From the NCBI RefSeq assembly GCF_040183065.1, contig NC_091120.1, forward strand, positions 14,810,708 through 14,874,707: DNA of 64,000 nucleotides, written 5' to 3'. This document shows positions 1,594 through 34,329 of the stretch, one piece after another. A program made the translations under genes and the position numbers. Position 1 is the first letter of the stretch; the number at the start of each line of letters is the position of its first letter. This DNA comes from Periplaneta americana (Eukaryota > Arthropoda > Insecta > Blattodea > Blattidae). Below the pieces are notes generated by a model. That model searched no databases, was not told the DNA's origin, and saw only the letters and a list, made by a program, of their open reading frames with translations.

Positions 1594-4500
1594 AAAATTC
1601 CAGAGAGTTTTAATTTTAAATCTGAAGAAAGGAAGAAAGAGTTGAGGGTTTCACCTATTGAAAAGGTGAACAGAAATAAGACTCCATCTAGTAAGGGCAG
1701 AAGAGGACGCAGTCTTGTTTCTAAACAGCCTAGTTCCCCTAAACTTGAAGATACAATTAATGTCTCTGGGATTGTGGAACTATTGGAGTCTCCAACATCA
1801 ATACCGTCCTCTAAGAAAGTACCTGTCACACCTTCCAGTGAAACTAAGCAGAAGAATTCTTCAAAGATAAGCCCTATTTTATTGTTAGAGAGAATATCTA
1901 CTCCTCGAAAGTCCCGCAGTTCAGAATTACAAAACCTCAGTTCCCACAGAAATACACGTAGAAAGAATATGCATACTTCATTCTTGAAAAGTGCAACAGA
2001 AGATACTGATGAAAATATTGAAGAAGCAGAAAAATCTGGAACCCTTATTATAACGCCCATCTCTGGGAGAATGTCAGCGAGAAAGTTGCAGAATAGGAAA
2101 TCAGTAATACGTACTCCTCTGTCTCCCTCTGGCCCATCAAATGTAAAGAAATTATCATCTACACCTAGATCAGCTACTTCCAGAGTATCATTTGTAGCTA
2201 CCCCACAATCTGGTAGAAAACTAAGATATTCAAGTCGTGGAAGTCAATCTCCAAAATCTCCTGTTATTGATGTTAGCCGAATGTCACGGTCATCGCTAAA
2301 ACTTGGTGATAAAATAAAGTTGAATCGTTCCTTAACCACACCGTCTTCAGTAAGAAAGTCGAAAGGATCAGCTGCGAAGATTGAACAAATGTCTGGCCAG
2401 CTTACACCATTGAGACATTCACCAGGAATTGAAGATATAAATATGTTTGTTTCCCATTCTGGCAGATCTAATGTCTCAGTTAGTACCAGAATATCCAAGG
2501 GTTCGGCAGTTGTGTCACCTAAAGATAATTCTAGCTTCATTGACTCTAATGACACTTCATTGTCTTCAAGAAAAAGACAGTCAACTACACCACCTTCAGT
2601 AAGAAGGTCAAGGAGTTCAGTAGGATCAGCTGTGAAGAATGAACCAGAATTTGGTCTGTTCACACCAAAAAGAAGTTCATCAGTAGGAGATACAAGTAGA
2701 TCAGTTTCTCCTTTAAGCAGATCAGGTCTCTCAGCCAGTACCAGAAAATCCAAGGGTTCGGCAATTGTGTCACCTAAAGATAATTCTACCTTCATTGACT
2801 TTAAAGATGATTCATTGTCTCCAAGAAGAGGACAGACAACCACACCATCTTCAGTAAGGCGGTCGAGTAGTTCAGTAGGATCAGCTGTGAAGAATGACAC
2901 ACCAAAGAGAAATTCATCAGGAGGAGATACAAGTAGATCAGTTTCTCCTTTAAGCAGATCAGGTCTCTCAGCCAGTACCAGAAAATCCAAGGGTTCGGCA
3001 ATTGTGTCACCTAAAGATAATTCTACCTTCATTGACTTTAAAGATGATTCATTGTCTCCAAGAAGAGGACAGACAACCACACCACCTTCAGTAAGAAGGT
3101 CGAGTAGTTCAGTAGGATCAGCTGTGAAGAATGACTCACCAAAGAGAAATTCATCAGGAGGAGATACAAGTAGATCAGTTTCTCCTTTAAGCAGATCAGG
3201 TCTCTCAGCCAGTACCAGAAAATCCAAGGGTTCGGCAATTGTGTCACCTAAAGATAATTCTACCTTCATTGACTTTAAAGATGATTCATTGTCTCCAAGA
3301 AGAGGACAGACAACCACACCATCTTCAGTAAGGCGGTCGAGTAGTTCAGTAGGATCAGCTGTGAAGAATGACACACCAAAGAGAAATTCATCAGGAGGAG
3401 ATACAAGTAGATCAGTTTCTCCTTTAAGCAGATCAGGTCTCTCAACCAGTACCAGAAAATCCAAGGGTTCGGCAATTGTGTCACCTAAAGATAATTCTAC
3501 CTTCATTGACTTTAAAGATGATTCATTGTCTCCAAGAAGAGGACAGACAACCACACCATCTTCAGTAAGGAGGTCGAGTAGTTCAGTAGGATCAGCTGTG
3601 AAGAATGACACACCAAAGAGAAGTTCATCAGGAGGAGATATAAGTAGGTCAGTTTCTCCTTTAAGCAGATCAGGTCTCTCAGCCGCTACCAGAAAATCCA
3701 AGGGTTCGCCAATTGTGTCACCTAAAGATAATTCTACCTTCATTGACTTTAAAGATGATTCATTGTCTCCAAGAAGAGGAGAGACAACCACACCACCTTC
3801 AGTAAGGAGGTCGAGGAGTTCAGTAGGATCAGCTGTGAAGAATGACACACCAAAGAGAAGTTCAACAGGAGGAGATATAAGTAGGTCAGTTTCTCCTTTA
3901 AGCAGATCAGGTCTCTCAGCCACTACCAGAAAATCCAAGGGTTCGCCAATTGTGTCACCTAAAGATAATTCTACCTTCATTGACTTTAAAGATGATTCAT
4001 TGTCTCCAAGAAGAGGAGAGACAACCACACCACCTTCAGTAAGGAGGTCGAGGAGTTCAGTAGGATCAGCTGTGAAGAATGACACACCAAAGAGAAGTTC
4101 ATCAGGAGGAGATATAAGTAGGTCAGTTTTTCCTTTAAGCAGATCAGGTCTCTCAGTTAGTACTAGAAAATCAAAGGGCTCAGCAGTTACATTGCCTGAA
4201 GATAATTCTGCCTTCATTGACTCTAATGACGTTTCATCGTCTTCAAGAGAAGAACAAGTTTATCGTTCATCAACCACACCACCTTCAGAAAGAAGATCGA
4301 GGAGTTCATCAGAAATTGGTGCTAGGAATAGGTCACTTTCTTCTTCAAGCAGAACCAGTGTCTCAGTTCGTACCAGAAAATATGAGCGTTCGCCAGTTCT
4401 GTCACCTAAAGACATTTCATTGTCTCCAAGAACAGGAAAGTTTGATCATTTCTCTACCACACCATCTTCGATGAGAGAATCGAGTTCAACAGGATCAGCT

Positions 4501-6645
4501 GTGAAGAACGAACCAGAACCTGGTTTATTTACACCAAAGAGAAGTCCATTAGGAATTGGAGATGAAAATACGTCAATTTCTCGTTCAAGCAGATCTTCTA
4601 ATGTCTCAGTTAGTACCAGAAAATCTGTAGGTTCAGCAGTTGTGTCACTGAAAGATAATTCTACCTTTATTGATACTAAAGAGGTTTCATTTTCTCCAAA
4701 AACAAGATCTTCAAGAACACCTGTTAGGAATACCAGGAGGTTTTCAAAAATTCAACCATTAAGGTCTTCTGAAAAACTTGAAATAGTAACTGAGAAATCC
4801 TCAATCTCAGGTGAGGCAACCCCAAATTCATTTGTATTACCCAGAAGTGTATTAGCAGGCTCTGCAGCGCGTGACCAGAAACCCTCGTCATCAAAGAAGA
4901 GGGTATCATGGTCTCAGACTCCAAGTTCTTTGAACACAACTTTCGATTTCGATTCTGTTCGAACTCCTCGGATTTCTTTAGAAGATTTTGTATCCCCACT
5001 CTCTTCCGCTAGGAAACGAATCAATGTGAGATTGGAATCCAAAAGTATGAGTGAGAAGAAACCTAAATCTGAGCCACCTTTTAAGAGAAGGCGTTTGAGT
5101 GAGCAAATCAAAGAGGATTCCTTCAGTGACATGAAATCAGAATCAAGTAATGAATCTTTCATTACTTCAGAAGTTCAGAGATGGAAGACAAATTCTCGTC
5201 AAGCCGTTTCATTGAGTGTTGAATATGCAGGTCAAAATGCGTCAATAGTAAAAGAGAATCATGTTGTTAGGAGGAGTTTTAGAAGTGCAATGTCGCCCAA
5301 TAATGTGCGTGGAGCTGAAGTGGTTGTGAAAAGTCTGAGAAGCACAAAATCTCCAAAAAATGACCTTTCAAATGTCCATGGTATAAAGCGTCTTATGAAA
5401 ACACCAAAATCTCCCAAAAATGACCTTTCAAATATTAAAGGTGTAAAACAGCTAATGAAGACACCAAGGAGCCAAAGGTCCCCTAAGAACGATTTGTCTG
5501 ATGTGCATGGGGTAAAACAGATTATGAAGACGCCAAGAGTACAAAAGTCTCCTAAAAATGATCTCACTAATATCCCTGGTGTGAAAAGGCTTATGAATAC
5601 TCCTAGAAGTCAAAAGTCTCCTAAGAATGATCTTTCAGATGTGCGTGGAGTAAAACAACTTTTGGGAACACCAAAAAGTCCAAAGTCTCCTAAGAATGAT
5701 TTGAGTGATGTTCGAGGTGTGGGGAAACTTATGAAGACTCCAAGGAGTCCGAAATCCCCTAAAAATGATTTGAGAGATGTTCGAGGTGTGCGGAAACTTA
5801 TGAAGACACCTAGGAGTCCAAAATCTCCCAGGAATGATCTTTCAGATGTGCGTGGTGTGAAACAACTTTTGGGAACACCAAAAAGTCCAAAGTCTCCTAA
5901 GAATGATTTGAGCGATGTTCGAGGTGTGCGGAAACTTATGAAGACTCCAAGGAGTCCGAAATCCCCTAAAAATGATTTGAGTGATGTTCGAGGTGTGCGG
6001 AAACTTATGAAGACTCCAAGGAGTCCGAAATCCCCTAAAAATGATTTGAGAGAAATTCGGGGTGTGAGGAAACTCATGAAGACACCTAGGAGTCCAAAAT
6101 CTCCTAGGAATGATCTTTCAGATGTGCGTGGTGTGAAACAACTTTTGGGAACACCAAAAAGTCCAAAGTCTCCTAAGAATGATTTGAGTGATGTTCGAGG
6201 TGTGCGGAAACTTATGAAGACTCCAAGGAGTCCGAAATCCCCTAAAAATGATTTGAGAGATGTTCGGGGTGTGAAGAGACTCATGAAAAGTCCAAGAATT
6301 CAGAAGTCTCCCAAGAATGACTTGACAAATGTTGAAGGTGTGAAGGAACTCATGAAGTCCCCTAAAGCTGCAGGGTTATATAAAGATTCTTCCTTAGGTG
6401 GCACAGATGTAAAATCACTTACTTCTCCAAAGAGCCCACAATCTGGACGTCAGACAGCACGAGCTCAGGTAAAGTCCAAGTCTCAAAGAAATGTGACTTC
6501 TCCAGAAAAAGAAGCACCACTTCAGAACTCAAGAACACGCAACAGAAGAGCAAACCTTGCACAACAGAGTCCGAAATCTGAAGCCGCTGTAGCAGAAGGA
6601 AATACGAGCAAAACACTTCTAACTTTAATACCACAGGAAGAAAAG
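1594..6645 (+). CDS. Ki-67-like protein, giant internal exon (partial gene, 5' end outside window)
   Basis: This 5052-base exon runs from acceptor ttttttgCAG (to 1593) to donor AAG|GTGAGT and is phase 0 at both ends (1684 codons). Frame use starts at the acceptor, not at an ATG. The product is rich in Ser, Pro, Lys and Arg with dozens of [ST]P-[KR] sites, as expected of a CDK1 substrate. Layout by exon residue: a degenerate Ki-67-type unit near 52-68 (VSGIVELLESP); RVSF at 197; tandem 79-residue-class repeats about 331-892; KKRVSW near 1103; fifteen short repeats about 1252-1590 with D-[VI]-x-G-[VI]-x-x-L-[ML]-x-[TS]-P. Vertebrate Ki-67 (MKI67) repeats centre on DLAG-x-x-ELF-x-TP and Ki-67 uses RVSF to dock PP1 at mitotic chromosomes. 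Homology is inferred from motif pattern and architecture; the FHA domain expected at the N terminus would lie upstream. Alternative: another repeat-rich chromosomal or cytoskeletal protein. Confidence 0.8.
2584..4269 (+). repeat. Coding tandem repeat, 237-base (79-residue) units
   Basis: Units begin with T-T-P-[SP]-S-V-R-R-S at 2584, 2836, 3073, 3310, 3547, 3784 and 4021. The five intervals from 2836 to 4021 are exactly 237 bases and the copies are near identical; the first unit (252 bases) and the last (249 bases) are longer variants, and degenerate relatives flank the block on both sides. Each unit carries SAVKN, PKR-[NS]-SS, SRSVSPLSRSGLS and SPKDNSTFIDFKDDSLSPR. Near identity at the base level indicates recent unequal exchange or gene conversion. 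The unit length matches no domain I recognise. Confidence 0.95.
5347..6366 (+). repeat. Fifteen K167R-like short repeats in the Ki-67-like exon
   Basis: Fifteen units of 20 or 23 residues (mostly 69 bases) follow the pattern SPKNDLSDVRGVRKLMKTPR. The third-position pair alternates between KQLLGTP (units 5, 8 and 12) and RKLMKTP-type units, giving a higher-order period of three to four units. Outer units (1-4, 14 and 15) are more diverged, as expected when homogenisation acts on the middle of an array. The invariant core D-[VI]-x-G-[VI]-x-x-[LI]-[ML]-x-[TS]-P lines up with the vertebrate Ki-67 repeat core. Confidence 0.9.
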
Positions 6646-6912
6646 GTGAGTACTATCTATACTTGTTATTAGGATTACATATTGGGGTCACATAGTTTCT
6701 GTGAACTAATGTGTATAGCAATAAACTAGTTTGTTTTTTCGTTGTATAATAAATGCAGTTCAGTTTCTGATACAACTGCTGTTTATAAAACTGGGGGTTG
6801 GGGGGGGGGGAATCCTAATTTATTTAGCTGCTAGATAATTTTGAAGTTAATGGATTTAAGTTGACAAAACTTTTGGGCTGTGATTTTTTATGACTTCAAA
6901 TTATCATTTTAG

Positions 6913-7719
6913 CCATTGGTGTAGCTCAGTCGGCTGAGGCGCTTGCCTGCTGGTCTGGACATGGGTTTGATTCCCGCTTGAGCTGATTGCCTGGTTTTGT
7001 TTTTTCTGAAGTTTTCCCCAATCGTGAAGCGAATCATGTAATCTGTGGGGAATCTCGGCCTCATCTCGCTATCACAAATTCCATAGATATTAAATAACCT
7101 AATACAGTAGAACCTCTATTATCTGAGATAATTAAGGGGGTGGGCTGAACGGTTAATCGGATAATCCATACCATAACCGATTTTCGTAAATTCAGTGAAT
7201 AATATTACACTTTGGTAATTTCCTCTATGGCCTTATATTTAACACGCTAGGTAATGGATCACAAGTTCACTAATTTAAGTCTCGTCAACGATAGGTCTTT
7301 AAGGGACAAGAGAACTTGTAATGCTGCCTGTGGAAAGATATGAATAGTGGAGGTCTCGTATTGTAGATTTACGTTCTTTATACAGTCCAAACTCGCGTTC
7401 TTTTGCGAGATGAGTCACAGTTCCTCTTTCCCGAAAACACACAATTATTTATGCTTTTTTTTTCTCGATACTTAACACAACAACATTTCTTTTGACACCG
7501 TAGAAGAAATTTTATATAGAAGTTACACAGTACCACAATTCGAACAATACATCATACTGTGTAAGGGAAAAGGCTTGTAATAACACTATTTAGAAAAAAT
7601 AACGTGCTAATACAATGTACAGTACTTCATATATTTCTGCAGGAAAAAAGCAAGAGAAAGACTGACGGATAATCGGGGTTCTACTGTAGTTGATAAGAGT
7701 CGTTAAATAACCAACTGAA
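6913..7719 (+). repeat. tRNA-derived SINE, full length but split by a MITE
   Basis: The tRNA-like head (GTAGCTCAGTCGGCTGAGG and GGGTTTGATTCCCG) starts at about 6915 and runs to 7104. It is interrupted by the element at 7105-7686 and resumes with the family tail GTCGTTAAATAACCAACTG and an A-rich end. Possible imperfect target duplications are TTATCATTTT before and TTATTATTTT after. It lies in intron 1 of the Ki-67-like gene. Confidence 0.85.
7105..7686. mobile_element. Pogo/Tigger-type MITE inserted in the SINE
   Basis: Terminal inverted repeats CAGTAGAACCTCTATTATC and GATAATCGGGGTTCTACTG flank 582 bases, with TA at 7103-7104 and again at 7687-7688. Removing the element and one TA restores a continuous SINE. 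CAGT termini, a TA target and the GATAATC theme match pogo/Tigger relatives. No transposase frame is present. Confidence 0.85.
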
Positions 7720-7844
7720 AAAATTATTATTTTCATCAAAAGAATTCATCCAATGGCTTCAGATAGTCACGGTTAATGCTTTGTGATGTAATGCCATTTG
7801 TTCACTGACAATCTGGAAAAAGTGCTTATACATTTGAGTCATAA

Positions 7845-8072
7845 TATCCTCTACCGTGACAATGCATCATCCTGCAGTGTGTGACAGGGGACTTTGCTAT
7901 CTCTTCAGGTGTGAATTTAATGATTCATCCACCCTACAGTCCTGATCTGAACTGAAACTATGATTGAGGCTTCAACAAACTGGTGTCTGAAGTGTCTCTA
8001 TAAAAGTTGGTGCAGTGCTTTGCTGACTGGTTCCGCCAAATGGACGAGTGCATTAGATTTACGGGGAAGTAT
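7845..8072 (+). pseudogene. Decayed mariner transposase fragment
   Basis: Reading across several frameshifts and stops shows DNASCHTA (second catalytic Asp region), then a piece with the sense of PYSPDL, and finally WFRQMDECIRFTGKYFEKQ and a stop. The latter matches the typical C-terminal end of mariner transposases. Inverted repeats are no longer visible, and the family differs from the mariner copies at 39894 and 63576. An old fossil in intron 1. Confidence 0.6.
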
Positions 8073-8561
8073 TTTGAGAAGCAATAAAGCCGAATGTAGA
8101 AACAGTTTGTTGCTATACATATCAGTTTGCAGAAACTTTCAGTGTGACCCATAGTAGTAGGAGTGTGATACCTCGGTGATCTTGTGTCTAGTCATACTTG
8201 GAATACTTTCCAGCATATCAATGTATGGTAATTAATTTTGACTTTGAAAAAGAACCTAACATTTGCATATCTTCATAAGGTTTGGCTGTATTTGTTCAGA
8301 GACTTGAATGTACCTTAAAATGTCTGAGAAAAGCAAACAGTGTTTGTGCTGGTTAGTTGAGAAAGTGAAGTTGCTATTGCCTCTGAATTAAAATTTGAAA
8401 ATAGCATTTCTCCTATTTGTTTTGTTGTTGAAATGTCTAGACGTTTGGCAATGAAGCCATTAGTCATCTTGCACTCCTATATTTTTTAGGTATAGAATAT
8501 TCTTTTTGTAGAGTTCTACATTCCTAACACAAGAGAAAATTTACTTATAAGAGAAAATCCA

Positions 8562-9462
8562 TTGGAATTATTGCAACCTACCTTCAGTTTGGAATTAACA
8601 GAGGAAATAAGTAAATCAGACACACCAAAAGAAATGCAAAAACTTCTAGCACTGGAAACGATCAATACTAGATACCCTACAGAAGAAGGGCTACACATAC
8701 ATACTGATGGATCAACCACAGAAAACCTTACTGGAGCTGGAGTTACATGTACACATTTTTCCTTTTATCATTCTGTTGGCAGAGACACAACAAATTATGA
8801 TGGTGAAATAGAGGCTATACACATTGCTCTCCGACAATTATTAAATCTTCCCTTAAATAAATATAACAAGACAGTAATTCTTTCAGATTCTAAAGCTGCA
8901 ATTCAGGGAATATGTTCCAATGCTACAAAGAAGTCAACAAAAATTAGAGAATGCTACAAAATGTTAACACAACTCCAAAAAGTTAATAAGATTGTCCGTC
9001 TCCAATGGATTCCAGCACACTGTGGAGTCATGGGGAATGAAGCCGCAGACACACTTGCCAAGAAAGGCACAACAATAAAACAAAAATCTAAACTTAATTT
9101 CTCATATTCCTCAATAAAATGCTTTATCACTACAAAATTTTCTCATTCATATGTACAAGAAATAGAATCAAATGCTAAAGACAAAAAATGGATTACACTA
9201 CTTTCCAACCCAGATATAATCTCCCAGAGACCAAGGAAAACAGCAGTTGCAGCCTTCAGACTATTGACAAATCATGACTGTCTAGCAAGTCATCTCTACA
9301 GAATAGGTATCTCAGCTTCACCAATATGTGTCCTGTGTAACGATCCAGCAGAAATGAATGAAGACCTGTGAAGCATTAAGATCAGAAGAAACTACAGTTC
9401 AAAAGTATTGGAAAGCACGACTGCTAATGGCTTCATTGCCAAATGCAAGGCACTAGACAACA
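8562..9462 (+). pseudogene. RNase H domain and 3' end of a non-LTR retrotransposon
   Basis: The frame 8562-9371 carries an RNase H fold with its acidic residues in order: HTDGS, YDGEIEA, LSDSKAA and GNEAAD. A following RLLTNH and CVLC half zinc-binding motif is usual for LINE ORF2 C-termini. A stop at 9369 is bypassed by a +1 shift, after which CEALRSEETTVQKYWKARL continues to the natural end MASLPNARH. The reverse transcriptase is missing (5' truncation). Short copies of the same 3' end lie reversed at about 8434-8480 and forward at 29070-29115. RNase H-bearing LINEs include the I, R1 and Jockey groups; I cannot choose. Confidence 0.85.
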
Positions 9463-10229
9463 ACATTTTCCTAAATGTTCTAAGTTTATGGGTTCATTTG
9501 AATTGCATACACACAAAAGGGAGAGTTAAGTATTCCAGTCCTGTGTAGATGTTCTGCCAGACAGTCATGGCCAGTAATTAGTCAGTACATTGCAACTGTA
9601 TATTTTTTTCGTATTTGAGGAACAATTCCTGGATTATATATAAGAATTTGTCACTTCTTGCCTTTAGCATTGTTTTTTCAGTTTTGCATGTACATTGATT
9701 GAAATTTTCTCTTGATTAGTAGTTTTACAGAATAGTAGGATAAATTTCGTTGAGTTTTTTTAAAGAATTTCTGTGCCTTTCTTAGTCTGTGGATTCATTT
9801 CCAATCAAACCACAATGTGATGGGATCCACTAAAGAATAATGTTTTGTTTTAATTTTCTTAGATGGTATATCATTTTACTGCATTCGTGTCTTTGTTGTG
9901 ATTTATATTTTGATATGGTTATATTGCAGATATTTTGTCTAAATTACAATATGGGGTGATAATGCTTGGTTTTTGATGGAAGATACTTTTATGAACAAAA
10001 CTCGCTTAGACTTAAGTAATTTTAATCAAAAGAAATTCCAAGTGTTTTTCTCGTTCTCCCAATGCACACCTTAGCTAGATTGTAAATTCTGAACCCTATA
10101 TATGACAATACTTCGTAATTGCACTTTAACCTGTGAAGTGTTTGTATGGAATTGTATTCTTTTAGTTATAGTTGAAATTTGCTTTAGTTATCAAAAAAAA
10201 TGAATGCATGACACTGTATTTAACATATA
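9463..10229. other. Intron sequence, nothing recognised
   Basis: AT-rich sequence between the LINE fossil and the Harbinger-like element, inside intron 1 of the Ki-67-like gene. No repeat boundary, reading frame or RNA gene could be supported. Confidence 0.4.
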
Positions 10230-11055
10230 GGCCCGGTTTCTTCAGCCTTTGTTATAATGCACCTAACATAGCGTTAATTAACTATAAGTTAAAAGTATGA
10301 ATTGCTGTTAAAAATATTGCGTTTCTTCGACTTTACATTTCACATTTTAACATTCTGTTTGTTAACTCTCTGTTAGGACCAGAGATTCTAGAGTTTAACC
10401 ATAACCTATAACCAAATATAGGCTCACTTCTGTTTTCTGAACTCTGACAATTGCGATTCTCGCTTGTTTTCGCTGTTTGATTCAGAGAGAATAGAAGTCT
10501 TTCTATTCTCTCAGGTTTGATTTCTGCTTCTTTCCTCGTCTGTATCACAATAGCGTGGAGCGGCATATTGGTATTGCTGTTATGAAATGGAAAACACTGG
10601 AACAAAAAGAAATGTTGGGACTAATTTCTCTTCTTTCGAAAGAAATCTTCTGCTGGAAATTATTTCCCAGTATAAACCAATTAATGAGAATAAACAAATG
10701 GATCTAAGTTGAAAGCGAAAAGTGAGGCTTGGAGAAAATAGCCTATACCTTTGTATGAACTTCTGGTCCGTCAAATCACAGAAATCATCCCCTCTGTTTA
10801 TATATTCATGGATATCATTTTCTAAATAATGCAGATATATAAGTTCAGCATCTAACGCACCAGCCATATTGGATACTTCTATGCTAACAGAGAGTTAAAT
10901 GATTGAACTGCATGAAATTGGGCAGTTAAATTAACATAGGTTTTAACAGCCTGTTTGTACTAACAGCAGTTGAAGAAATGCTTCAACTGTTAAGTTTACA
11001 GTTAAAATGGAATAACACACTGTTATAATTTAACAAAGGTTGAAGAAACCGGGCC
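10230..11055 (-). mobile_element. PIF/Harbinger-like non-autonomous element
   Basis: Inverted repeats GGCCCGGTTTCTTCAGCC and its complement at the right end bound 826 bases. Flanks are ATA (left) and TTA (right), an eroded version of the TWA target typical of Harbinger. On the minus strand, 10867 to about 10750 encodes a fragment ending in DLTDQKFIQRYRLF, matching the N-terminal region of Harbinger nucleases where a helix precedes the DDE domain. The rest of the transposase and the Myb-like partner are absent. Internal A+T-rich repeats of the TTAACT type lie near both ends. Confidence 0.7.
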
Positions 11056-11059
11056 TTAG

Positions 11060-11706
11060 TATGGTCGTGGTTGAGACTTTGGAAGTAGATACCTTTGAGA
11101 ATTTTTTTGTGGCAGAACTCTTAGCTTGCTACTTTTTTTTTTTTTTAATTGGTGGCACTTTATATGCCTGTTACAATAAGTTCCAGGTCTCTTATGGACC
11201 CTTGCCTTTCGCAGTCGTATGGAGAAATATGATTATGTTACATTGATGTTTTCATCTTCCTTAGCTTGCTACATATTATTTCCCCTGACTACAAATGTGG
11301 CTCATAGATGTCGCTAATGTCAAGGAGCATAGATCAGAGACTAGCCAGAGTGCACCACAGACAGTGGTTCTACATTACACTTGTAATGAAATTATGATGA
11401 TGTAAAATTATTAAGATGTAACAGGGGAAGTGGAGTATCCAAAGAAAACCTTGTGTTGCCTGGATCACTGGCTTACACAACACAAATTGTGTGATTCATG
11501 GTTTGTTTTATATAAAAAAAAATAATTTTTGTCGCTAGTGTATATTGTTACCTTGTGGTATCTCCCCTTCCCTTTTAAAAGAGTTGGCACATTTAATTTT
11601 CATTTTGTGTTGTAAATGGCAGATAGATGCGAGAGTTATGAAAAATTTAAAGGAACAATGTAATGCTTAAAGTAAAGATATTTTTCGCATCATCTTAATT
11701 TTGTTT
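11060..11706. other. Intron, with a T-rich repeat shared with 26070-26150
   Basis: The stretch around 11130-11215 (T run, then CAATAAGTTCCAGGTCTCT) recurs near 26070-26140 (T run, then AGTACCAGGTCTCTTTGGAC). This suggests a retroposed repeat whose poly(A) reads on the minus strand. Nothing else was recognised. Confidence 0.4.
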
Positions 11707-12243
11707 TAACAATAGGAGTTTTGCCAGGAACGTCAATGCTTATCTATATAACAAATATTATTAGTTTACAATAATTTGTCACATTTATTTGGTTTTTAAT
11801 GTTTTCGGCTTGATTAAACCATCTTCAGAAAAGTTTTATGCCTAAATACATGAAAGTGATACAAACAAATAAACCAATTAAATGAATCTCTTTAGAAGTA
11901 GGTGAACATAAAATAAAATAAAAACATTACAGTATTAAAACTGGGCTATGTGAGCCATGATCAAAGTTAATCTAATTTTAGTATTTAATAACTTTGATCA
12001 TGGCTCACATAGCCCAGTTTTAATACTGTAATGTTTTAATTTTATTGTATATTCACCTACTTCTAAAGAGATTCATTTAATTGGTTTATTTATTTGTATC
12101 ACACACACATGTACCACTTTCATGTATTTAGGCATAAACTTTTCTGTTAAAAAGCCAAATAAATGTGACAAATTATTGTCAACTAATAATATTTGTTATA
12201 TAGATAAGCATTGACGGTTCCTGGCAAAACTCCTATTGTTATT
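11707..12243. mobile_element. Long foldback (hairpin) element, 537 bases
   Basis: The left arm begins TAACAATAGGAGTTTTGCC, and its reverse complement (GGCAAAACTCCTATTGTTA) closes the right arm. Arms of about 260 bases pair almost perfectly around a loop of roughly 19 bases at 11970-11988. Differences include about 30 extra bases near 11800-11830 on the left and a short CA run on the right. There is no coding capacity. It ends about 62 bases before the acceptor of the next Ki-67-like exon. Class is uncertain (MITE or foldback). Confidence 0.9.
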
Positions 12244-12305
12244 GCATCAGCTTATCGGCCCTTATCATGCCTTTCAAATTTTTTATTTTGTTTGCTTTGT
12301 TGTAG

Positions 12306-13395
12306 GTTATTTCTGCTGTTGCTGATAGTACCACAGCTACAACTAGAAGCACACGTAACAAGAAAGGATCAACATCAATTGAAAGTAGTTCAGAACCACC
12401 AAAGAAACGAGGCAGAAAGGAAGAAAGTAAAATATATGCTGACGAGGATTTGCCCTCGCAGTCTAAAAGTGGTGCTAGAGTCCACTTCGACATCCCAGGC
12501 ACTCCACCTACACCAGTTAGATCTTCAAGAAGAAAGAAGGTTACTGATATCGTGACCTCTCCTGTTGAGAAGGGAACAAGAAAATTGAAGGGAAGCACAG
12601 AAGAAACAAAACCAGCTGATGGTGTGAGTGATCAGACAATTATTCCTTCTCCACCAGGCAGACGCACACGGGGAACTAAGGTTCCTGTAAAAGAAGCTAC
12701 ACCTACTAGAAGTAAACGAGGCGCAAAAAAGGTTGTTGAAGTAGATTCTCCACCTAAACAACAGCAGAACATCTCTGTGGTTAATGAAGATACACACCCA
12801 GCTAAGAGAAAGAGAGGTGCTACTGCTACAGTTGTGATAGATTCATCACCACTTACTAAAAGAAAACGGGTTGCTACTGTTGCTGCAAGTGCTGAGTCTC
12901 CTGTACCTTCTAAAAATCGAAGAGTTGCTGAATCAGCTGTGGAGGTGGAGGTTCCTCATTCACCAGTTGTAAGGAAAACAAGAGGTAGAACAGCTACCGT
13001 TGTAGCAGTATCAAGTTCAGCTGATGGAAGCATTTCTGATTTTGACACAACCAAACAGCAGAAAACGAAAAGTTCGGGATCTCCTGTGAAAAGAGGGAAA
13101 CGGGGTGCTAAGGTTGTCGAAGTTACTCCCATTATTGCTGAAAACAGTTCTGATGTCATCACTCCCAAACAGGCAGAATCAGCTTCAAGATCTCCTGTGA
13201 AAAGAGGAAAACGGGGTGGCAAAGTTGTCAAAGCTACTTCCGTTACTGCTGAAAGCAGTTCTGATGTCATCACTACCAGACAGACAGAAAAAGATTCTGG
13301 AACTCCTGTGAAAAGAGGAAAACGGGGTACCAAGGTTATTGAACTTTCTGTGACTCCAGAGTCTCCAAAAAGGTTACGAGGTGCTAAAACTTCAG
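12306..13395 (+). CDS. Ki-67-like protein, second visible exon (basic repeats, AT-hook-like)
   Basis: Acceptor tttgttgtAG (to 12305) and donor TCAG|GTAAAT bound 1090 bases, entering in phase 0 and leaving one base. The frame matches the previous exon (AAG|GTT) and the next (G|AA gives Glu). Visible features: PPKKRGRK near exon residue 36, AT-hook-like; ARVHFDIPGTPPTP at residue 57, a good RVxF PP1 docking candidate followed by TP sites; and repeated [ST]PVKRGKRG-[AGT]-KV units at about 258, 298 and 338, with looser RKRG/RKRVA relatives before them. Family knowledge: Ki-67 binds DNA through its C-terminal region, so a basic DNA-binding tail is in character. No enzymatic motif is seen. Confidence 0.85.
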
Positions 13396-15441
13396 GTAAA
13401 TTTAATATTCTTTACATCTATTTATGATAGAAATAAAATCTAAAAATTTAAATATATGGAATAAAGAATATAATTACAAACAAGAGAAATAGAAATAAAA
13501 TAATACAATCAATATAAAAAAGGAGATACAGTAGTATTACAAAATTTGAGACCGAATGAGCAGCGCTCGTGTTCGATCGCAGTTCAGATATAATATTAAT
13601 AGGCCTATAAGAGAATATAAAATAAAATAGGAAATAAAATTAAAATTACAGTTACAGAAATAGATTTCATATTTTCAGACTAGCATGCATAATAAGCAGT
13701 TTTGTCATTGGCAATCTGATGTTTACACACTGAGCTAGTGCAGCAGTCTGGCAGGCAGATTTATTAATCAATAAAATTGGCAAACTGTAACTTTTCCTGC
13801 CAGTAACTTGGCAGTCTGTGAGCATTGTTTGATTTGGCTTTGATGTACTTCATTTTACGTCATTAATTTCCATTGAAGACAGTAATGTCAAGATCCGTGA
13901 TCCCAAAAACTTATCCTCTTAGGATGCACTGTTATACTTGTTAGGAAACTTGCTTAACCCTTCCAAGTAAGCACCTCATGATGCACTGCATGTCTGCGTC
14001 ATTTCATAGCACCTCTGGAAGTGATTTTCTGTCATTTGGTCGAATTCCCTGGGGTTTCCCCCCCCCCCCCCCCCCCCCGTTGGAACATATTTTAACTTCA
14101 TTTTCAATCCAAGCAATAGCAAAAGAAAAGTCTGCAGTCAAAATTGTTTGACATGTACCATATGAAATACGTACTTGTTAGAATGGCTTACCCCCCCCCC
14201 CCACACACACACACATTTTTTTCAATTTGACTTGTGTGAGATGATCGATGGTCATCTTCTGTGGACTTTCTTCCCTCTTTAAATTGATTGTATCAAATAC
14301 GAACATTTTTATGGCTTGAACCTATTGGTTTTAAAAGCATTTGTTTTTTATTCAAAATTTTACATATGCTATTACTATGATGTACATATGCTCTTCATTC
14401 TTGTACAGTTAATTTTAACTGTGACTGCAGATTCACAACATTCTATCTTTAAAGAAAGACTGCACCCTATTGATAGAAGACTAGATGATAAAAGCTTCTC
14501 AACCGAATAATAACACGCATTTCCCATATTTATTCTGCATTTAATTTCCTCCCGAGTGTCATTTATATTTGTAGAAAGTAACTATCAGTTGTAGTATTTG
14601 TCAGTACCAGAATTCGAAACAGCTGACAAAAGAAAATTCAACCTGACAACTAAAAAAATCACTATAATGCACTAGCATATGTAGCAAGAAGGGAAAAATT
14701 GTTAGGTTTTACCCTTACAGTTGATGATCCCTGGTTGATATTCAGTAATAAACTAAGTTCACTTATAGTTATTCTCCTATTTTCTTGGACAAGAGCATCA
14801 ACATGTGAACATTGAATTTGGCATGATACCCTTGAGCACTTGCTCTAATCATGGATTGTCCTTTAGAGATGTTCGACCAGAACAAAACTGTGCACACCAA
14901 TCCTTTACACCTGTTTTCCCTAGGCATGTCTCTCCATATACTGAATTTCAGCAGGTGGATGCTGCTTGCAGTCAAAAAACCAATTGTAGCACTATTCATT
15001 TTCGAATACTTTTATCTTGCACCATTCGCTTTTTCTTTTTTTCATTTATTCAGAACAACAGTAACTAGTATGCTAACCACACCGACCAGTAGAAAGTATA
15101 TAACCATTGTTGCTAATACTCCTAAAGTGAACTCTGTTCTACACTCCTGTTGCACACAGTAAGCTTGTCCAACTTTTATTTGAACTAATCAAATATTTTA
15201 CTGTCAGGGAATTGCTGAACTTGTAATTTCACTCGCTGATAGTTTGTACGTATTTATATCGAGAAAAGCTAGAAATTTAAAAAGAGAGATATATCATGTT
15301 GACTTTTTTTTTCTCCTAATATGGATTAAAAGTTGTTTGACATTTTTTTATTTGACTTTAGAGGATAATTATGAATTCGCCATAGAAAATGCTAAGTTTC
15401 TTAATTTTTTATGGTTACATTTTAATTACCTTGAATTTCAG
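13396..15441. other. Intron of the Ki-67-like gene
   Basis: GT-AG intron with a C tract at about 14058-14080, a second at 14190 leading into a CA run, and a minus-strand LINE remnant (14470-14578). Small open frames here show no family signature. Some sequence around 13530-13640 has the look of a dispersed repeat but I could not bound it. Confidence 0.6.
14470..14578 (-). pseudogene. RTE-like LINE fragment
   Basis: Nearly identical to 53985-54080. On the minus strand it encodes the segment INMG-[NK]-x-x-YYSVEKLLSSS found in the larger copies at 26938-27426 and 53874-54131. Only about 100 bases survive. Confidence 0.75.
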
Positions 15442-15544
15442 AAGAAAATGTATCTGCAGACACGAAGACTAAGGGGAAAAAATCCAGGGTAGTTTCAAGT
15501 CCAGTGTCCAAGTCCAAGTCGCCATCCCCACTTGCCACAAGGAG
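15442..15544 (+). CDS. Ki-67-like protein, third visible exon
   Basis: Acceptor ttgaatttCAG and donor GGAG|GTATGT bound 103 bases. Joining the single base G left by the previous exon gives Glu, then ENVSADTKTKGKK, SRVVSSPVSKSKSPSPLATR, leaving two bases for the next exon. The residues are Ser/Pro/Lys-rich like the rest of the protein. RVVSSP is not a canonical RVxF. The alternative frame beginning with ATG inside the exon is rejected because it breaks both junctions. Confidence 0.8.
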
Positions 15545-15548
15545 GTAT

Positions 15549-16360
15549 GTGCATTTTATTTATTTATGCTCGAGCATGCCGAAATGTAGTAATTATACAC
15601 CTGGTAGCAGTCCTTTAATGCATGTCATTAAAGTACACCTATTTATTAAAGTTCAGGTTTTCGATTATTCTCGGATATGCAATCGAAAGACAACTAGCAA
15701 AATGTTACGCAGGCTGGAAATCCAATACTGTCGCAGAAGGTTATGTTCTGTGACAGTAGTTAATTATAAATAATATTCAAATAAATTCATTGTCATCTCG
15801 TTTTTCAATGTCTAAATCAATATCAAGGTTATATCAAGATTGTTTATTTTACTCTCTAGATTATATCAAGGTCGTCGACATTCGTTGCCCAGAAAAAATC
15901 AATGCTTTCACGTCAGCACACATCTCACAATTTACAAGATTGCACAAGATCAGTTCGCTCCCCAGTCACATAAGAACAACATGAATACTTATGAATAATT
16001 TCAAGTTAGAAATATGGTCGAGCATAAAAAGTCGTATGAAACTTGCCTATAATGGTACCGTAAAGTGGGGTGACTTTGAACAGTAATTTAGCTCCTTTCT
16101 AAATTAAATGCTGTAGCCAACTGCGAAAAAACTGTTTCAGTTGTCAATAAATTAGTTCAGTTTTTTCGCAATAGGGTACAGCATTTAATTTAGAAGGGCG
16201 CTAAATTACTGTTCAAAGTCACCCCGCTTTACGGTAATTAAGATGCTCGTATGAAAATTATGAAACTCACTTGCGCTCGTTTCATAAACATCCTCACGTC
16301 TTAATTACTGCCATTATAGGCTCGTTGCATAATGTACTATTATGGTCTTATTGTGCTAAT
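15549..16360. repeat. Unclassified dispersed repeat in the intron, palindromic end
   Basis: Sequence with low coding content ends in an outer palindrome (TATGAAACTTGCCTATAATGG at 16036 pairing loosely with CCATTATAGGCTCGTTGCAT near 16311). That palindrome is itself split by the MITE at 16056-16236. The left border is a guess. Confidence 0.4.
16056..16236. mobile_element. Palindromic MITE of 181 bases
   Basis: TACCGTAAAGTGGGGTGACT at the left end is matched by its complement at the right (CCCCGCTTTACGGTA), and pairing continues through GAACAGTAATTTAGC to a central AT-rich loop. TA sits at both borders, compatible with a TA target duplication. It lies inside a larger repeat. Confidence 0.8.
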
Positions 16361-16597
16361 ATTGCATCATTTATATGAAGCCGACAACATTATTCGAACT
16401 AAAGCCCTTACACATACTGCACTAGCCCATATAGGAGGTACGACTTCACTGATTGGCTGTGAGTGATTAATGAAGTAATATGACTGGCATGTCTCTGAAG
16501 AACTGTAATTCTGCATGCACATCTGCATGGAGTAGCTGTTCTCTGAAAAGAATGGTACGAGATATCCAGCTCAGTAGAAGCAATTCTGATAGATTTA

Positions 16598-18280
16598 GGC
16601 TGGTATTCATAGTCGACACTTTCGATTAAAGCAGGGCAGGGCACATTACGTGATTCTGAGAAATGAGCGCTGTGTGCTTTAAAGAACGCGTCTTGCGAGC
16701 GCTGCGACGTATGCATACTGTACGTCATTCAGTGTCGGTGCAGTGGTGACTCTGTGGCATGAAACACTCCAACTGATTAAGAGGTTCAATATCCAATGAC
16801 ATTATTCTCTACAACATGCTACTGAATATGACAAATATGTTAGTAATGAACGCCATAAATTAATACAACTTAAAGAAAATGTTTCTCAGGTACATTATAT
16901 TAGAATATCTATTTGATATTTACATTGCATTATAGGTTATTTAAGTTGTATTAATTTATGATCATATATCATATCACATTATATTATATTATATTATATT
17001 ATATTATATCATATTATATATTAACAGAATGACAATAATGCACTTAGTGAATCGGCTATGAGAATTAGCCACAAAATTTGCCACGAAATTGCAAAGGAAT
17101 TGAAAACATTCAACAAAGGTGAATTCATCAAGCGATGTTTAATTATATTGGCAGATGAACTCTGTCCACAGCAAGTAGGGGAAGTGGAAGCCATACACCT
17201 TCTCGTAGAACCGTGGTGAGGAGATTGCAGTATGTGCGTATGGGTTATGTAAATAAGCCTAATGATTTGTGTGTGTCTATAGAGCGAAGTTTATTTCATT
17301 AAATTAATAAGAGTGTTATAAATTCTGTACTGTACAATGGTTTGATGTAATATCCTTATAAACTATAATGTACTGACAGACTGAATGACTAGAACAACCG
17401 TGGCTCTTGTTATATTAATGCAGGGAAGGTAGCTGTAATGCGAGTCCGCCACTGCGTGAGCGTTCCGCTCTGGCTTGGAATTGAAGTGCCTTGCGGAGCG
17501 AGAGCAGCTCTGGCAGACTAAATGGAGCCACTCTCATGCTCGGTCCTGGATTAAAGTGTCCTTTGGAAGACACAAAGTATCACTTTTCCGTTGCACAGTC
17601 GACACTTTGGTGCAAAGGAACACTTTGGATGAAAGTGTACTTCCGACCACACTTTGAGCCGAAAGTGTCACTTTGTAGAAAAATGGCGGACGTCTTGGAA
17701 GTTGTCGAATTATTTATTAGAACGTACGGAAGAGGTGGCACAATTAGTGGACAATGTACGAAAGCGCTACATTAGGGATAGACCTAAAGACAATCCTGTG
17801 GAATTTTATAATGATATAGAATGTAAAAAAGCGGTTCAGATTCGATAAAGAAACTTATTGAGATTGCTCATCGACTACCTGTATTTTGAGATAAGATTTG
17901 TCTTGATGTTGATATAATCATTACTATTTTGATAATATATATTTTCATGCCAGTAAGCAATATATCTGATATGGCTGCTTCTGCTGAGATGCTGTCTCTA
18001 GTTCATGTGCAGTCATAACCTCACCATGAAAAGAGATCTCATACCATTAGGCCTATTTTGTTTTGCATTGTAGAAAAATGTGGTATTCAAAATATTCCTG
18101 AAGAGCAGCCAATAATGGAAACAAGAGAGAAAGAGGGAGAATAATAAAAATAATAATAATGTGTTTATTTCATTCTTTTGACTTCTATTCACTATTCACG
18201 AAAAAGACAAAAATGAAAACGAAAATAAAGGGAATAAAACGATATATCAATTAAGAAGATTCATATAGAACTTAACCTAA

Positions 18281-18313
<33 letters not shown>

Positions 18314-18867
18314 TAGGTTACGTTTCTCAGTCCAACTTAACCTAACTATATAAATCAGTGGAACGGATACATACAAAACCTAACTTAACGATATAAATCA
18401 ATGAAAAAGATATGTACAAAATGTAATCTAAATATATAAATCAATGGAGCAGCTATGTACTGTACAAAACCTAACCTAATTTCACCAGCAGTATCACTAC
18501 CTATTTAATAAAATATTTTATATCTGAACTGGCTGAAATAATCTAAACTATCGGCAACAAAAACTAAAAACTGAAATAAAAGAACTATAAACATATATTT
18601 TCGTTCTCGCGCGATCAATTAGGCTCCCAACTCAAATCATAAGCGTTATAATCTGTGGGTTACACATTAATTTGTTATTGTTTGTTCACTTGTTTTGAAA
18701 GGCATTGTGGGACTTCTGTTACCAACCAAATTGTAACTCTACACTTTGCTGGCATAAAGTGCACTTCTTCAATCGTCTATGAATACCACTAATATGAAAG
18801 AGCCACTTTCGTCAAAAGTGTCACTTTGCAAAATGGTGATATAAAGTGTCGACTATGAATACCAGCC
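16598..18867 (+). mobile_element. PIF/Harbinger-like element with decayed transposase
   Basis: Inverted repeats GGCTGGTATTCATAGTCGAC and its complement bound 2270 bases, flanked by TTA at 16595-16597 and 18868-18870, the classic Harbinger target. Subterminal AAAGTGT/ACACTTT motifs are repeated many times around 17540-17670 and 18790-18850. After ATGGCGGAC at 17681 a broken frame reads ADVLEVVELF, then (frameshift) VDNVRKRYIRDRPKDNPVEF and KKRFRFDKET, matching the start of Harbinger transposases. The catalytic domain is absent. An (ATATT)n tract at 16978-17012 and (AT)n at 18283-18310 lie inside. Confidence 0.8.
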
Positions 18868-19049
18868 TTAGTGGGACTTGGATACAAAGCGGCTCTTACA
18901 GCCTCTCTTGTGTGTGGACTGTGGTGTTACAGTATCTGTTTATCTCCAAAACATTGCCATCACTTTCAAATTTTGCAGCCAATCTATTCACTGTCTGCAG
19001 GGAGACCACCACGTACCAAAATAAAAATGGAAATGCTCCTGAGTACAGA

Positions 19050-20000
19050 TTCTCTCTTCTTCTTCTCATGGTACTACAGCCGTTTGCCAGCCTTGACCGC
19101 CCCAACAATTGTCCTCCATCTCATCCTATCACTTGCTGCTCTCCTCTATGCCCCCACACCACTCTTCAACAAGTCATCCTCTACAGACTGCAACCATCTC
19201 ACTGGAGGTCTTCCAACTCTTCGACTGCCATAAATAGTATTGAAGGTCAACTTTCTAGCTGGGTATTGTTCCTCTGTTCTGTATAAATGGCCCAGCCACT
19301 GTATTCTTCTTCTTTAATTTCTCTTACTATGTCAGGGTCGTTAAATATTTTATATAGTTCAGAATTGTATCTTATTCTCCACTTTCCCATTTCGCTCACA
19401 GGGCCGTATATTCTTCTCAGGATCTTTCTTTCAAATGCTGCTAGCTTATTTTCATCTTCTTTATTTATAGCCCAGGTCTCAGCTCCATACGCTAGCACTG
19501 GTCTAATAAGGGTCTTATATAATTTTATTTTGGTTTTCCTGTGTATATATCTGGATCTCATTTGTCTATTTAGTCCATAATAACTTCTGTTAGCTAAAGT
19601 TAGTCTATGCTTAATTTCTTGCTCTATTTTTCCATCATCAGTTACTTTCACCCCTAGGTATTTAAATTCCTTTACTCTTTGGAACCTATGATGTCCAGCA
19701 TCTAAATGGTCATTTTTTTTTTACTGATTTTTTTGTTATTTCCATGTATTTAGTTTTCTCTTTGTTTATCTGTAATCCCATCTTTTTTGCAGCTGTTTCC
19801 AATTTAATGAAAGTATCTCTTAGATCCCTCATTGATCTGCTCACTATGTCCAGGTCATCAGCATATCCTAATATCTGTGTTGATTTAGTGTAAATGGTTG
19901 CTCTTGTATCAATGTTTGAGTCCCTGATGACTTTTTCCAAAGCTATATTGAAGAGAAGGCAAGCCAGTGTATCTCCTTGTCCTGAGTCCAGATTACAGTC
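19050..20000 (-). pseudogene. LINE reverse transcriptase, 3' part, frameshifted
   Basis: Reading the minus strand from 19990: GDTLA with LLFNIALEKVIRDSNI, the catalytic YADDLDIVSRS, INKEKTKYMEI, then a shift, then LYKTLIRPVLAYGAETW, FERKILRRIYGP and RVGRPPVRWL, before a poor 3' end near 19060. The order of thumb and C-terminal motifs is that of RTE-like non-LTR elements. The 5' half (endonuclease and early RT) is missing. At least two frame breaks are visible. It is a different family from the copy at 26405. Confidence 0.85.
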
Positions 20001-20270
20001 TTTATTTTTTTTTTATTTTTTTTTATTTTATTTATTTATTTATTTATTTTTTTTTTTTTTTTGTAAAATAAGACCATTTTCATATTTGCTCCACCCTTGT
20101 ACTGCTGCTTCACAAACTGGACCAGGTAGTACCTCTCCTTTGTAACATCAAGTGCTGTCATATACCGAACCATGAATGAATAGAATTTGAAAGTTCTGAA
20201 TCCAAAATTATTCATTCTATTATACATTTTCAGTGTGTGTGGGCCACCCTGCATGTATTCTCCTCTCCTC
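20001..20270 (-). repeat. Poly(A)-tailed retroposed segment of unknown origin
   Basis: On the minus strand about 205 bases end in a long A-rich tail (seen on plus as T runs 20001-20062). The body has an open frame containing NNFGFRTFKFYSFMVRYMTA and YYLVQFVKQQYKGG, which I cannot assign. It could be a processed pseudogene or an unusual SINE or LINE tail. It abuts the LINE at 19050-20000. Confidence 0.4.
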
Positions 20271-20442
20271 CTCGCAGTTCTGTAGTCTCAAATGTATTAC
20301 TATGCAGGTTTCATGGAGTACTTTCAATGTGTTGATAGTCCATGAGCATACATAATACATTTTTCGTTATATGAGTTTGTCCACTTGTGAGATTTGCTGT
20401 CATAACAAAATTTGTATGCTTATTTGTGATGTTTAATTTCAG

Positions 20443-20530
20443 AACTGCCAGACAGACAAAGAAGAAAGAAGTGAGTAATGACAATGTAACACCAGATCGT
20501 AAAACACGATCAAGTCGAAGGAAGAGGTAA
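20443..20530 (+). CDS. Ki-67-like protein, last coding exon
   Basis: Acceptor gtttaatttcAG precedes 88 bases that complete the Arg codon left by the previous exon. They encode TARQTKKKEVSNDNVTPDRK, TRSSRRKR and TAA (20528-20530). The end is strongly basic with a bipartite nuclear-localisation character. Two donor-like sites follow closely: GAG|GTAATG at 20526/20527, which would remove the stop and extend the protein by four residues (CSLH) after RKR, and AAAG|GTATGT at 20544/20545, which would leave the stop and splice within the 3' UTR. The second has the better consensus. Confidence 0.75.
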
Positions 20531-25612: not shown

Positions 25613-26404
25613 TCCAAGGGCACAGGATTTGCCTTTATGGTTCTAGCGACTGTCTTCCTTCCACATTCGAATGTTACTTGTTAATGATAGGTGTAACATG
25701 AAAACAAATCAGTTTGGAGACTAACTTAGCTGCATTTAGATATGGGGTAGAAACAACAAAGTAAATGACATTACACATATTAATTAAAGCAGAGTGTTTT
25801 AGAGTTTAAAATTCATTTTTCTCTAAAGTTTGTTATTTGGACCCTCATCGTTCCTCCTGCCAATCCTTGAAATGTAAGGAAATAATGTTGCAAGTATTAG
25901 CATTTTATTAATCCTGAATGTAAGCGTTTAAAAACTATAGCAGCAGACATTTAAATTGCTACCTTGAAGTGATTTAATGTGTCCCATATACTGACAGACC
26001 ATCTAATTGTGCTCAAAGCAATAAGAAATAATACATTTGCTGCTGAAATACTCAAAAAAGACAAGAATACAATTTTTTTTTTTTTTTTAGATGTATTGTA
26101 ACTATAAGTACCAGGTCTCTTTGGACCTTTGCCTTTTACAGAAAACAAGATATTTCCTAGTACTCAGAAAATTGTTGCGAGGTTTGACTGTATCAGTTAT
26201 TTCCTGTCAATTATAATAATAAATATGTGCAGAGAGCTTTAGAGCTTTTATTTTTACATTAGACTAAGTATTGTGATGTTGCAGTCGTGACCATACTGCC
26301 TGTCTCTGTACAAACTATTTGTCGGATTGTGTTCATATTCAGTATTTACTAATCACGTCATGAGGGAATGGTGCACATGAAATATAATAATTTTAATAAG
26401 AAAA

Positions 26405-27556
26405 TAATGAAGAAAAAATGGGAGTATAAGGGTACAGTGCATCAGTTATTCATAGATTTCAAAAAGGCATATGACTCGGTTAAGAGAGAAGTTTTATATG
26501 ATATTCTTATTGAATTTGGTATTCCCAAGAAACTAGTTCGATTAATTAAAATGTGTCTCAGTGAAACGTACAGCAGAGTCCGTATAGGTCAGTTTCTGTC
26601 AGATGCGTTTCCAATTCACTGTGGGCTAAAGCAAGGAGATGCACTATCACCTTTACTTTTTAACTTTGCTCTAGAGTATACCATTAGGAAAGTCCAGGAT
26701 AACAGAGAGGGTTTGGAATTGAACGGGTTACATCAGCTGCTTGTCTATGCGGATGACGTGAATATTTTAGGAGAAAATCCACAAACGATTAGGGAAAACA
26801 CGGGAATTTTACTGGAAGCAAGTAAAGAGATAGGTTTGGAAGTAAATCCCGAAAAGACAAAGTATATTATTATGTCTCATGACCAGAATATTGTATGAAA
26901 TGGAAATATAAAAATTGGAAATTTATCTTTTGAAGAGGTGGAGAAGTTCAAATATCTGGGAGCAACAGTAACAAATATAAATGATACTCGGGAGGAAATT
27001 GAACACAGAATAAATATGGGAAATGCCTGTTATTATTCGGTTGAGAAACTTTTATCATCCAGTCTGTTGTCAAAAAATCTGAAAGTTAGAATTTATAAAA
27101 CAGTTATATTACTGGTTGTTCTGTATGGTTGTGAAACTTGGACTCTCACTTTGAGAGAGGAACAGAGACTACGGGTGTTTGAGAATAAGATTCTTAGGAA
27201 AATATTTGGGGCTAAGAGGGATGAAGTTACAGGAGAATGGAGAAAGTTACACAACACAGAACTGCAGGCATTGTATTCTTCACCTGACATAATTAGGAAC
27301 ATTAAATCCAGACATTTGAGATGGGCAGGGCATGTAGCACATATGGGCGAATCCAGAAATGCATATAGTGTGTTAGTTGGGAGGCCGGAGGGAAAAAGAC
27401 CTTTAGGGAGGCCAAGACGTAGATGAGAAGATAATATTAAAATGGATTTGAGAGAGGTGTGATATGATGATAGAGAATGGATTAATTTTGCTCAGGATAG
27501 GGACCAATGGCGGGCTTATGTGAGGGCGGCAATGAACCTCTGGGTTCCTTAAAAGC
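26405..27556 (+). pseudogene. RTE-like LINE, 5'-truncated, one frame with stop mutations
   Basis: A single frame reads [39 protein letters not shown], catalytic [55 protein letters not shown] and GKRPLGRPRRR. In-frame stops at 26896, 27424 and 27462 are each one transition from a sense codon. The 3' end finishes CTTAAAAGCCAGTAAGTAAG, a tetranucleotide tail characteristic of RTE-like insertions. Four more fragments of this family lie in the window (14470, 32524, 33427 and 53506). Confidence 0.9.
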
Positions 27557-33426: not shown

Positions 33427-34322
33427 TTCTATACTTACTGGCTTTTAAGGAAACCGGAGGTTCATTGCCGCCCTCACATGAGCCCACCATTGGTCCCTAT
33501 CATCATATCCCCTGTGAAACGAGGACTATGAACAAAAATAATGAACGAATTCTCCAGTGTTTTGAAAGAAAAATATTGCGCAGGTTTATGGCCCCGTGTG
33601 TGACAGGAGTGTATGGAGGAAAAGGTATAACCATGAATTGTATTCTCTTTATGAAGATGTGGAAGTCTCTAAATACATAATGTTAACCAGGCTAAGATGG
33701 GAAGGACCCCTGATAAGGAAGGAAGAGGCAGAGATCCCAAAAAGAGTAATGCTAACACAGCCGGATGGGACAAGAAGGAAAGGAAGGCCGAGATCGAGAT
33801 GGATTGATGGAGTGGATGGTGATGCGAGAGCTTTTTGGGTGAGAAATTGGAGGATGGTAGCTTTGGATCGCGATGGCTGGAGACGAGTCCTTGAGGAAGC
33901 CAAGACTCAGCAATGAGTTGTAGAGCTACTGATGATGATCATCATCATATCCCACCTCTCTTCCCATCTACGTCTCGGCCTCCCCAAAGGTCTTTTTCCC
34001 TCCAGCCTCCCAACTAACACTCTATATGCATTTCTGGATTCGCCCATATGTGCTACATGCCCTGCCCATCTCAAATGTCTGGATTTAATGTTCCTAATTA
34101 TGTCAGGTGAAGGATATAATGCGTGCAGCTCTGCATTGTGTAACTTTCTCCATTCTCCTGTAACTTCATCCCTTTTAGCCCCAAATATTTTCCTAAGAAC
34201 CTTATTCTCAAAAACCCTCAATCTCTGTTCCTCTCTCAAAGTGAGAGTCCAAGTTTCACAGCCATACAGAACAGCTGGTAATATAACTATTTTATAAATT
34301 CTAACTTTCAGATTTTTTGACA
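33427..34322 (-). pseudogene. RTE-like LINE 3' part, split by another LINE
   Basis: Minus-strand frame 34323-33943 carries VRIYKIVILPAVLYGCETWT, FENKVLRKIFGAKRD, WAGHVAHMGESRN and GKRPLGRPRRRW. The last part and the TTAC tail (33427-33511) continue on the far side of the insertion at 33512-33942. Order and orientation match the uninterrupted copy at 53506-54150. Confidence 0.85.
33512..33942 (+). mobile_element. LINE 3' fragment nested in another LINE, with target duplication
   Basis: Flanked by the direct repeat CATCATATCCC at 33501-33511 and 33943-33953. Frames with a shift read CFERKILRRFMAP, RYNHELYSLYEDVEVSKYIM, RRKGRPRSRWIDGVDGDARA and LDRDGWRRVLEEAKTQQ, then a GATGATGATCAT tail. It is a different RTE-like family from its host. 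Confidence 0.85.
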
Positions 34323-34329
34323 TATAGTC

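Follow-up and report, generated by a model that had tools for sequence, protein, structure and literature searches.

A probable Ki-67 ortholog with compact KI67R-like repeats and Ki-67-type FHA exons upstream

Results

Exon structure of the locus

The window analysed was a stretch of 64,000 nt (C4:14810708-14874707) of a 3.23-Gb genome, and 120 kb of sequence upstream of it was also examined. The window part of a Ki-67-like gene is located on the + strand at 1594..20530 and consists of four exons. The large exon (1594..6645, + strand, phase 0/0) encodes 1684 residues in an open frame with AG/GT borders, and both repeat arrays described below lie inside it. It is followed on the same strand by the exon of the basic C-terminal region (12306..13395) and a small exon of the basic tail (15442..15544), both with AG/GT borders, and by the last exon of the model (20443..20530), which has an AG acceptor and terminates at a TAA stop. 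As described in the initial annotation, these four exons are phase-consistent: with their AG acceptors and GT donors they form a single frame of 2110 residues in which the only stop is at the end. ATTAAA was found at 21306 and 21344 and AATAAA at 22626 and 22928, all 3' of the last exon. The gene exceeds that description, as two further exons were located upstream and perhaps three more, which are predicted, link them to the window.

Other elements were seen in and around the gene. The basic C-terminal exon contains a 37-residue repeat (2.3 copies, 13078-13337). The introns hold two retrotransposon pieces, one encoding RNase H (8496-9371, + strand, E = 3.2e-17) and one encoding reverse transcriptase (19710-20012, - strand, E = 1.1e-12). 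A 43-bp minisatellite at 18334-18479, with a unit starting AACCTAACCTAAC, resembles TTAGG, the telomere repeat in insects. Another reverse transcriptase piece of a mobile element was found at 26353-26898, and the frame at 33907-34332 resembles, by eye only, the terminal part of such an element. Two transposase frames lie at 39952-40434 and 50208-50906. Likely exons of one or more other genes are located on the - strand at 56838-57014 and 49227-49394; one is TPR-like (E = 2.2e-5, below the cut-off) and one is acidic. Upstream of the window, the - strand carries an open frame of 524 residues (-48009 to -46438) with repeated DSSSVIVLDSDN-like stretches, perhaps encoding a nuclear protein. Among exons examined as species markers, two of a sodium channel had no PDB match at 1e-5 and a para-like one matched sodium channels broadly; two lipocalin hits were also obtained.

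FHA exons upstream of the window

The absence of an FHA exon upstream of the window, together with a lack of profile similarity, had been named beforehand as refuting the Ki-67 reading. An FHA domain was found there, in two in-phase exons whose best match in the PDB is human Ki-67. FHA exon 1 (C4 14775645-14775818; window -35062..-34889) was recognized by FHA hallmarks in the 120 kb upstream, and FHA exon 2 (C4 14777736-14777845; window -32971..-32862) continues it 2 kb later. They lie about 35 and 33 kb upstream of the window on the + strand, the same strand as the window exons. The intron between them is canonical and in phase 0, and the joined product has 95 residues.

The joined exons matched the Ki-67 chains 2aff (E = 9.8e-20) and 1r21 (E = 1.2e-19) among PDB sequences, and the next protein after Ki-67 followed at E = 9.8e-6, a gap of 14 orders of magnitude. 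The Pfam FHA family was matched above its cut-off (E = 2.5e-13). Identity to the human FHA domain was 51% over 47 residues and 53% over 38 residues, and the alignment to Ki-67 retained the G-R, S-x-x-H and N-G residues, which we take to be the FHA signature. When the whole genome was searched with the FHA profile, these exons accounted for two of the 22 matches, each weak singly (E = 1.26, over the cut-off, and E = 2.45, under it). With human FHA as the query, 27 loci were compared: E was 7.5e-13 for one of the two exons and 1.2e-6 for the other, against 1.2e-4 for the best locus elsewhere, in a comparison that covered 15 of the 22 FHA matches and the locus of the two exons themselves, with the other five left out. 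The sequences thus point to an N-terminal FHA domain of Ki-67 type, presumably belonging to the same transcript as the window exons.

The array of 15 KI67R-like units

Near the end of the large exon, 15 KI67R-like units, each 20-23 residues long, form an array (5347..6363, + strand; consensus KSPKNDLSDVRGVKKLMKTP) that was characterized by Pfam search for KI67R, decoys, motif permutation and pN/pS. All 15 units are inside this one exon, and their core starts span exon residues 1261-1580, with a spacing of 20 once and of 23 thereafter. The motif D-[VI]-x-G-[VI]-x-x-L-[ML]-x-[TS]-P, initially ascribed to all fifteen, holds exactly in nine of them only; in five of the others the leading D is replaced by N or E, and in the sixth I takes the place of L. 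The number of repeats stands, as every unit fits the relaxed form [VI]-x-G-[VI]-x-x-[LI]-[ML]-x-[TS]-P.

Similarity to the K167R/KI67R profile, which had also been proposed, was borne out on the isolated array (5347-6369), where four stretches gave 43.6 bits against a cut-off of 32.4 (E = 4.8e-11). The first four units alone stayed below the cut-off (E = 1.6e-4), and KI67R was called neither in the Pfam scan of the whole exon nor in a six-frame search of the genome with KI67R. Decoys matched in period and composition were scored in the same way. None of the nine reached KI67R, but three exceeded the cut-off of some unrelated family, with E-values as low as 4.7e-13. As such E-values are inflated for repeat arrays, that of KI67R was not taken at face value. 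Because the decoys match other families, the result rests on the identity of the family, named beforehand as one among 24736.

The 22-residue human repeat motif (from PMC8354752) aligned without gaps to TPKSPKNDLSNIKGVKQLMKTP, with 9 of 22 residues identical. Its score was reached by none of 20000 permutations, and by 4 of 20000 when the TP ends were held fixed. Outside the array this motif gave no match better than chance (for the part before the array, 319 of 5000 permutations; 381 of 1000 shuffles). Together these comparisons argue that repeats of the KI67R type, carrying the Ki-67 motif, are present at the locus.

Among the array units, pS was 0.594 and pN 0.163 (pN/pS 0.27), which suggests an old array whose protein sequence is conserved. 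When the array's first 109 residues were used to search the genome, four matches fell below 1e-25, all in the exon at 1594-6645. Among the candidates scored, which were the best ones only, no similar array turned up in the rest of the 3.23 Gb (best E = 0.098).

A stray unit, VSGIVELLESP, had been reported near the start of the exon and is indeed present at exon residue 57 (1762..1794, + strand). Its likeness to Ki-67 units is weak: 61 of 1000 shuffles reached its score with the human first unit, and 381 of 1000 did so with the 22-residue motif. As a Ki-67 unit it is suggestive only.

A second array of 79-residue units

The same exon contains a second array, missing from the initial annotation, of an S/T-P-rich 79-residue unit in 6.7 copies with 96% match (2661..4248, + strand). 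Among six of its units pS was 0.041 and pN 0.034, and the array is young. The sole Pfam match of the whole exon, to bPH_4 (E = 3.5e-7, above the cut-off), was read as a chance match to this 79-residue repeat and rejected.

RVxF motifs, S/T-P sites and the basic tail

Three candidate PP1 docking sites were located on the + strand, RVSF at 2182..2193, RVSW at 4900..4911 and RVHF at 12477..12488. The RVxF motifs of the initial annotation are therefore present, with three strict matches against 0.30 expected, a number reached by 4 of 1000 shuffles. A looser PP1 pattern showed a weaker, marginal excess (five overlapping matches against 1.93 expected; 60 of 1000 shuffles reached five). The RVxF PP1-binding motif can thus be listed as a short candidate motif of the predicted protein. 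The segment around RVSW had no match in the PDB at E up to 10. A genome search with the profile of the extended PP1_bind region (PF15276) gave five matches, none of them above the cut-off (best E = 1.26) and none at the locus. Likewise, the human PP1 segment did not match the locus protein, its score being reached by 188 of 1000 shuffles. The missing PF15276 is not decisive, because a review names the RVxF motif and not the extended region as conserved in all orthologs (PMC8354752).

Another 22-residue motif, that of the conserved domain, is said to be present in all Ki-67 homologs (PMC4841783). The one human segment compared scored against the locus protein at a level that 625 of 1000 shuffles reached. 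A genome search with the profile of the Ki-67-binding domain of NIFK gave six matches, none over the cut-off (best E = 1.18).

SP/TP sites numbered 133 in the 2357-residue model described below, 39 of them in the KI67R-like array. The tail had been described as basic and AT-hook-like. It is basic (pI 11.1 for the last 300 residues), but no GRP core of an AT-hook occurs in the model protein. Its composition, with 10% Arg and 1.3% Leu, is basic and not Leu-rich. The Leu/Arg-rich C-terminal chromatin-binding region of Ki-67 has been called weakly conserved (PMC4841783).

Linking exons and the joined model

FHA exon 2 is closed by a good phase-2 donor (GTGAGA), and three candidate exons on the + strand complete a phase-consistent chain from it to the exon at 1594. 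Two of them, at -7827..-7587 and -3393..-3257, fit in phase and pass strict exon-finder criteria (a strict donor, a length of 40 residues or more and a polar composition not below 0.6). They were the only candidates on the gene strand in the 34-kb gap, where the other strand gave one. Outside the gap the strict exon finder gave no candidate in 127.7 kb of the + strand (84.7 kb upstream and 43 kb downstream), and on the - strand one downstream and 14 upstream; another gene seems to be located at the latter. Exon 3 (-15137..-15059) fits in phase and has a weak donor (GTAATG). It was selected by eye among nine candidates sharing the phase pair, for its FKY start (FRY in human Ki-67). Adding it raised the Ki-67 FHA score from 73.8 to 75.6 bits, a small gain that is partly circular because the exon was chosen for the likeness of FKY to FRY. 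The resulting nine-exon model is open throughout its 2357 residues.

From these sequences we infer that the upstream exons and the window exons form one transcript across about 34 kb. As the FHA exons are that far from the window and the linking exons are only predicted, two adjacent genes might have been joined wrongly, of which the upstream one would be a short FHA gene and the other would encode a basic nuclear protein rich in repeats. FHA exon 2, if unspliced, does run into a stop directly after GDR. That stop would, however, truncate the FHA domain before its last strand, at a point where the good donor GTGAGA is available, and the candidate chain fits the phases as far as the repeat exon. 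In addition, two independent hallmarks of Ki-67, the FHA domain of its type and KI67R, adjoin on one strand. We consider two separate genes improbable.

Discussion

Identity of the gene

The reading of the gene as a diverged Ki-67 ortholog, put forward in the initial annotation, gained support from the Ki-67-type FHA domain upstream and from KI67R on the isolated array. On sequence evidence, the locus is very probably the Ki-67 ortholog of this animal. Nearly as probable is the full explanation, in which the ortholog combines a Ki-67-type FHA domain, a long body that is rich in S/T-P and carries RVxF motifs, an array of 15 minimal Ki-67 motifs, and a basic tail.

Ki-67 has been named the metazoan homolog of bridgin, a fungal FHA protein (PMC7794384). 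Like the predicted protein, bridgin has an FHA domain and a basic domain; it differs as a fungal kinetochore linker, and KI67R repeats are unmentioned in its description (PMC7794384). The gene might instead encode another FHA chromatin protein from this broad family, with KI67R-like repeats acquired by convergence. Such a bridgin-like protein would suit the failure to find PP1_bind and a Leu-rich tail, the statement that the basic regions of bridgin and Ki-67, though the two are described as homologs, are not evidently similar (PMC7794384), and the three of nine decoys that reached an unrelated family above its cut-off. Since KI67R, named before the test, was nevertheless the top family and the 22-residue motif aligned over its full length without gaps, we regard convergence as a little less probable still than two wrongly joined genes. 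A decaying or unexpressed Ki-67 copy, which the retrotransposon pieces in the introns might suggest, is the least probable of all, given a nine-exon model open over 2357 residues and array units with an excess of synonymous change.

Comparison with known Ki-67 proteins

The predicted ortholog shares with vertebrate Ki-67 (MKI67) an N-terminal Ki-67-type FHA domain, here in the upstream exons, together with RVxF motifs, S/T-P richness and a basic C terminus. KI67R repeats within a single large exon are also common to both (PMC8354752). It differs from vertebrate Ki-67 in its extra, young 79-residue array, in the extended PP1 region, which was not detected here, and in a tail that is not Leu-rich. 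Repo-Man (CDCA2) shares an RVxF motif; it is not known to have an FHA domain or repeats. The PP1 region common to Ki-67 and Repo-Man, as given in PMC4032110, was not detected here.

The repeats had been put at a fifth of the vertebrate length, and this holds for units of 20-23 residues here against about 120 in human Ki-67. The difference is less striking than it appears, because the core motif of the human repeat also measures 22 residues, chicken repeats have about 60 residues and zebrafish Ki-67 has four shorter repeats (PMC8354752). The number and size of Ki-67 repeats are described in the same review as varying greatly.

A Ki-67 relative outside vertebrates is to be expected, as Booth and others have already listed Ki-67 for Ciona, Saccoglossus, Hydra and Trichoplax (PMC4032110, section 6). 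These non-vertebrate proteins are shown aligned at the PP1-binding region (PMC4032110, Fig. 1 legend), the region undetected here. The locus adds a new member, with a compact repeat, to a family already known from Hydra, Trichoplax and others (PMC4032110). Flies are not known to have Ki-67. No insect Ki-67 was found in the literature among titles and abstract openings, a scope that left most subscription journals outside and does not prove absence.

Proposed function

If the protein acts as vertebrate Ki-67 does (PMC8354752, PMC4841783, PMC4032110), its basic tail would bind mitotic chromatin, and the long S/T-P-rich body, probably disordered, would extend outward as a coat of the chromosome surface. 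CDK1 would phosphorylate many of the 133 SP/TP sites at mitotic entry, the RVxF sites would recruit PP1 at mitotic exit, and the FHA domain may bind a phospho-threonine partner. A role at the chromosome surface is likely on this analogy; for PP1 recruitment the balance is about even.

The function of the Ki-67 repeat motif has been described as unknown (PMC4841783), and the way in which the repeats combine conservation with variability has been called an unanswered enigma (PMC8354752). We tentatively suggest, as a possibility we hold to be rather unlikely, that the unit of 20-23 residues represents the Ki-67 repeat reduced to its functional core, without a spacer, this lineage having retained the motif alone and selection having preserved its SP, DL, G, L and [TS]P positions, and that spacer-like bulk was amplified separately in the young 79-residue array. 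If this were true, a docking motif and the bulk of the coat, mixed in the vertebrate 120-residue repeat, would be split here into two arrays.

Human Ki-67 is the protein stained to mark dividing cells. The motif-sized repeats of the present gene, with old, protein-conserved units beside a young bulk array, point to the residues that matter. The two arrays offer a natural separation of motif from mass and could help to show what Ki-67 repeats do. If the host is an arthropod responsive to RNAi, it may also provide a new non-vertebrate system in which to study the chromosome periphery.
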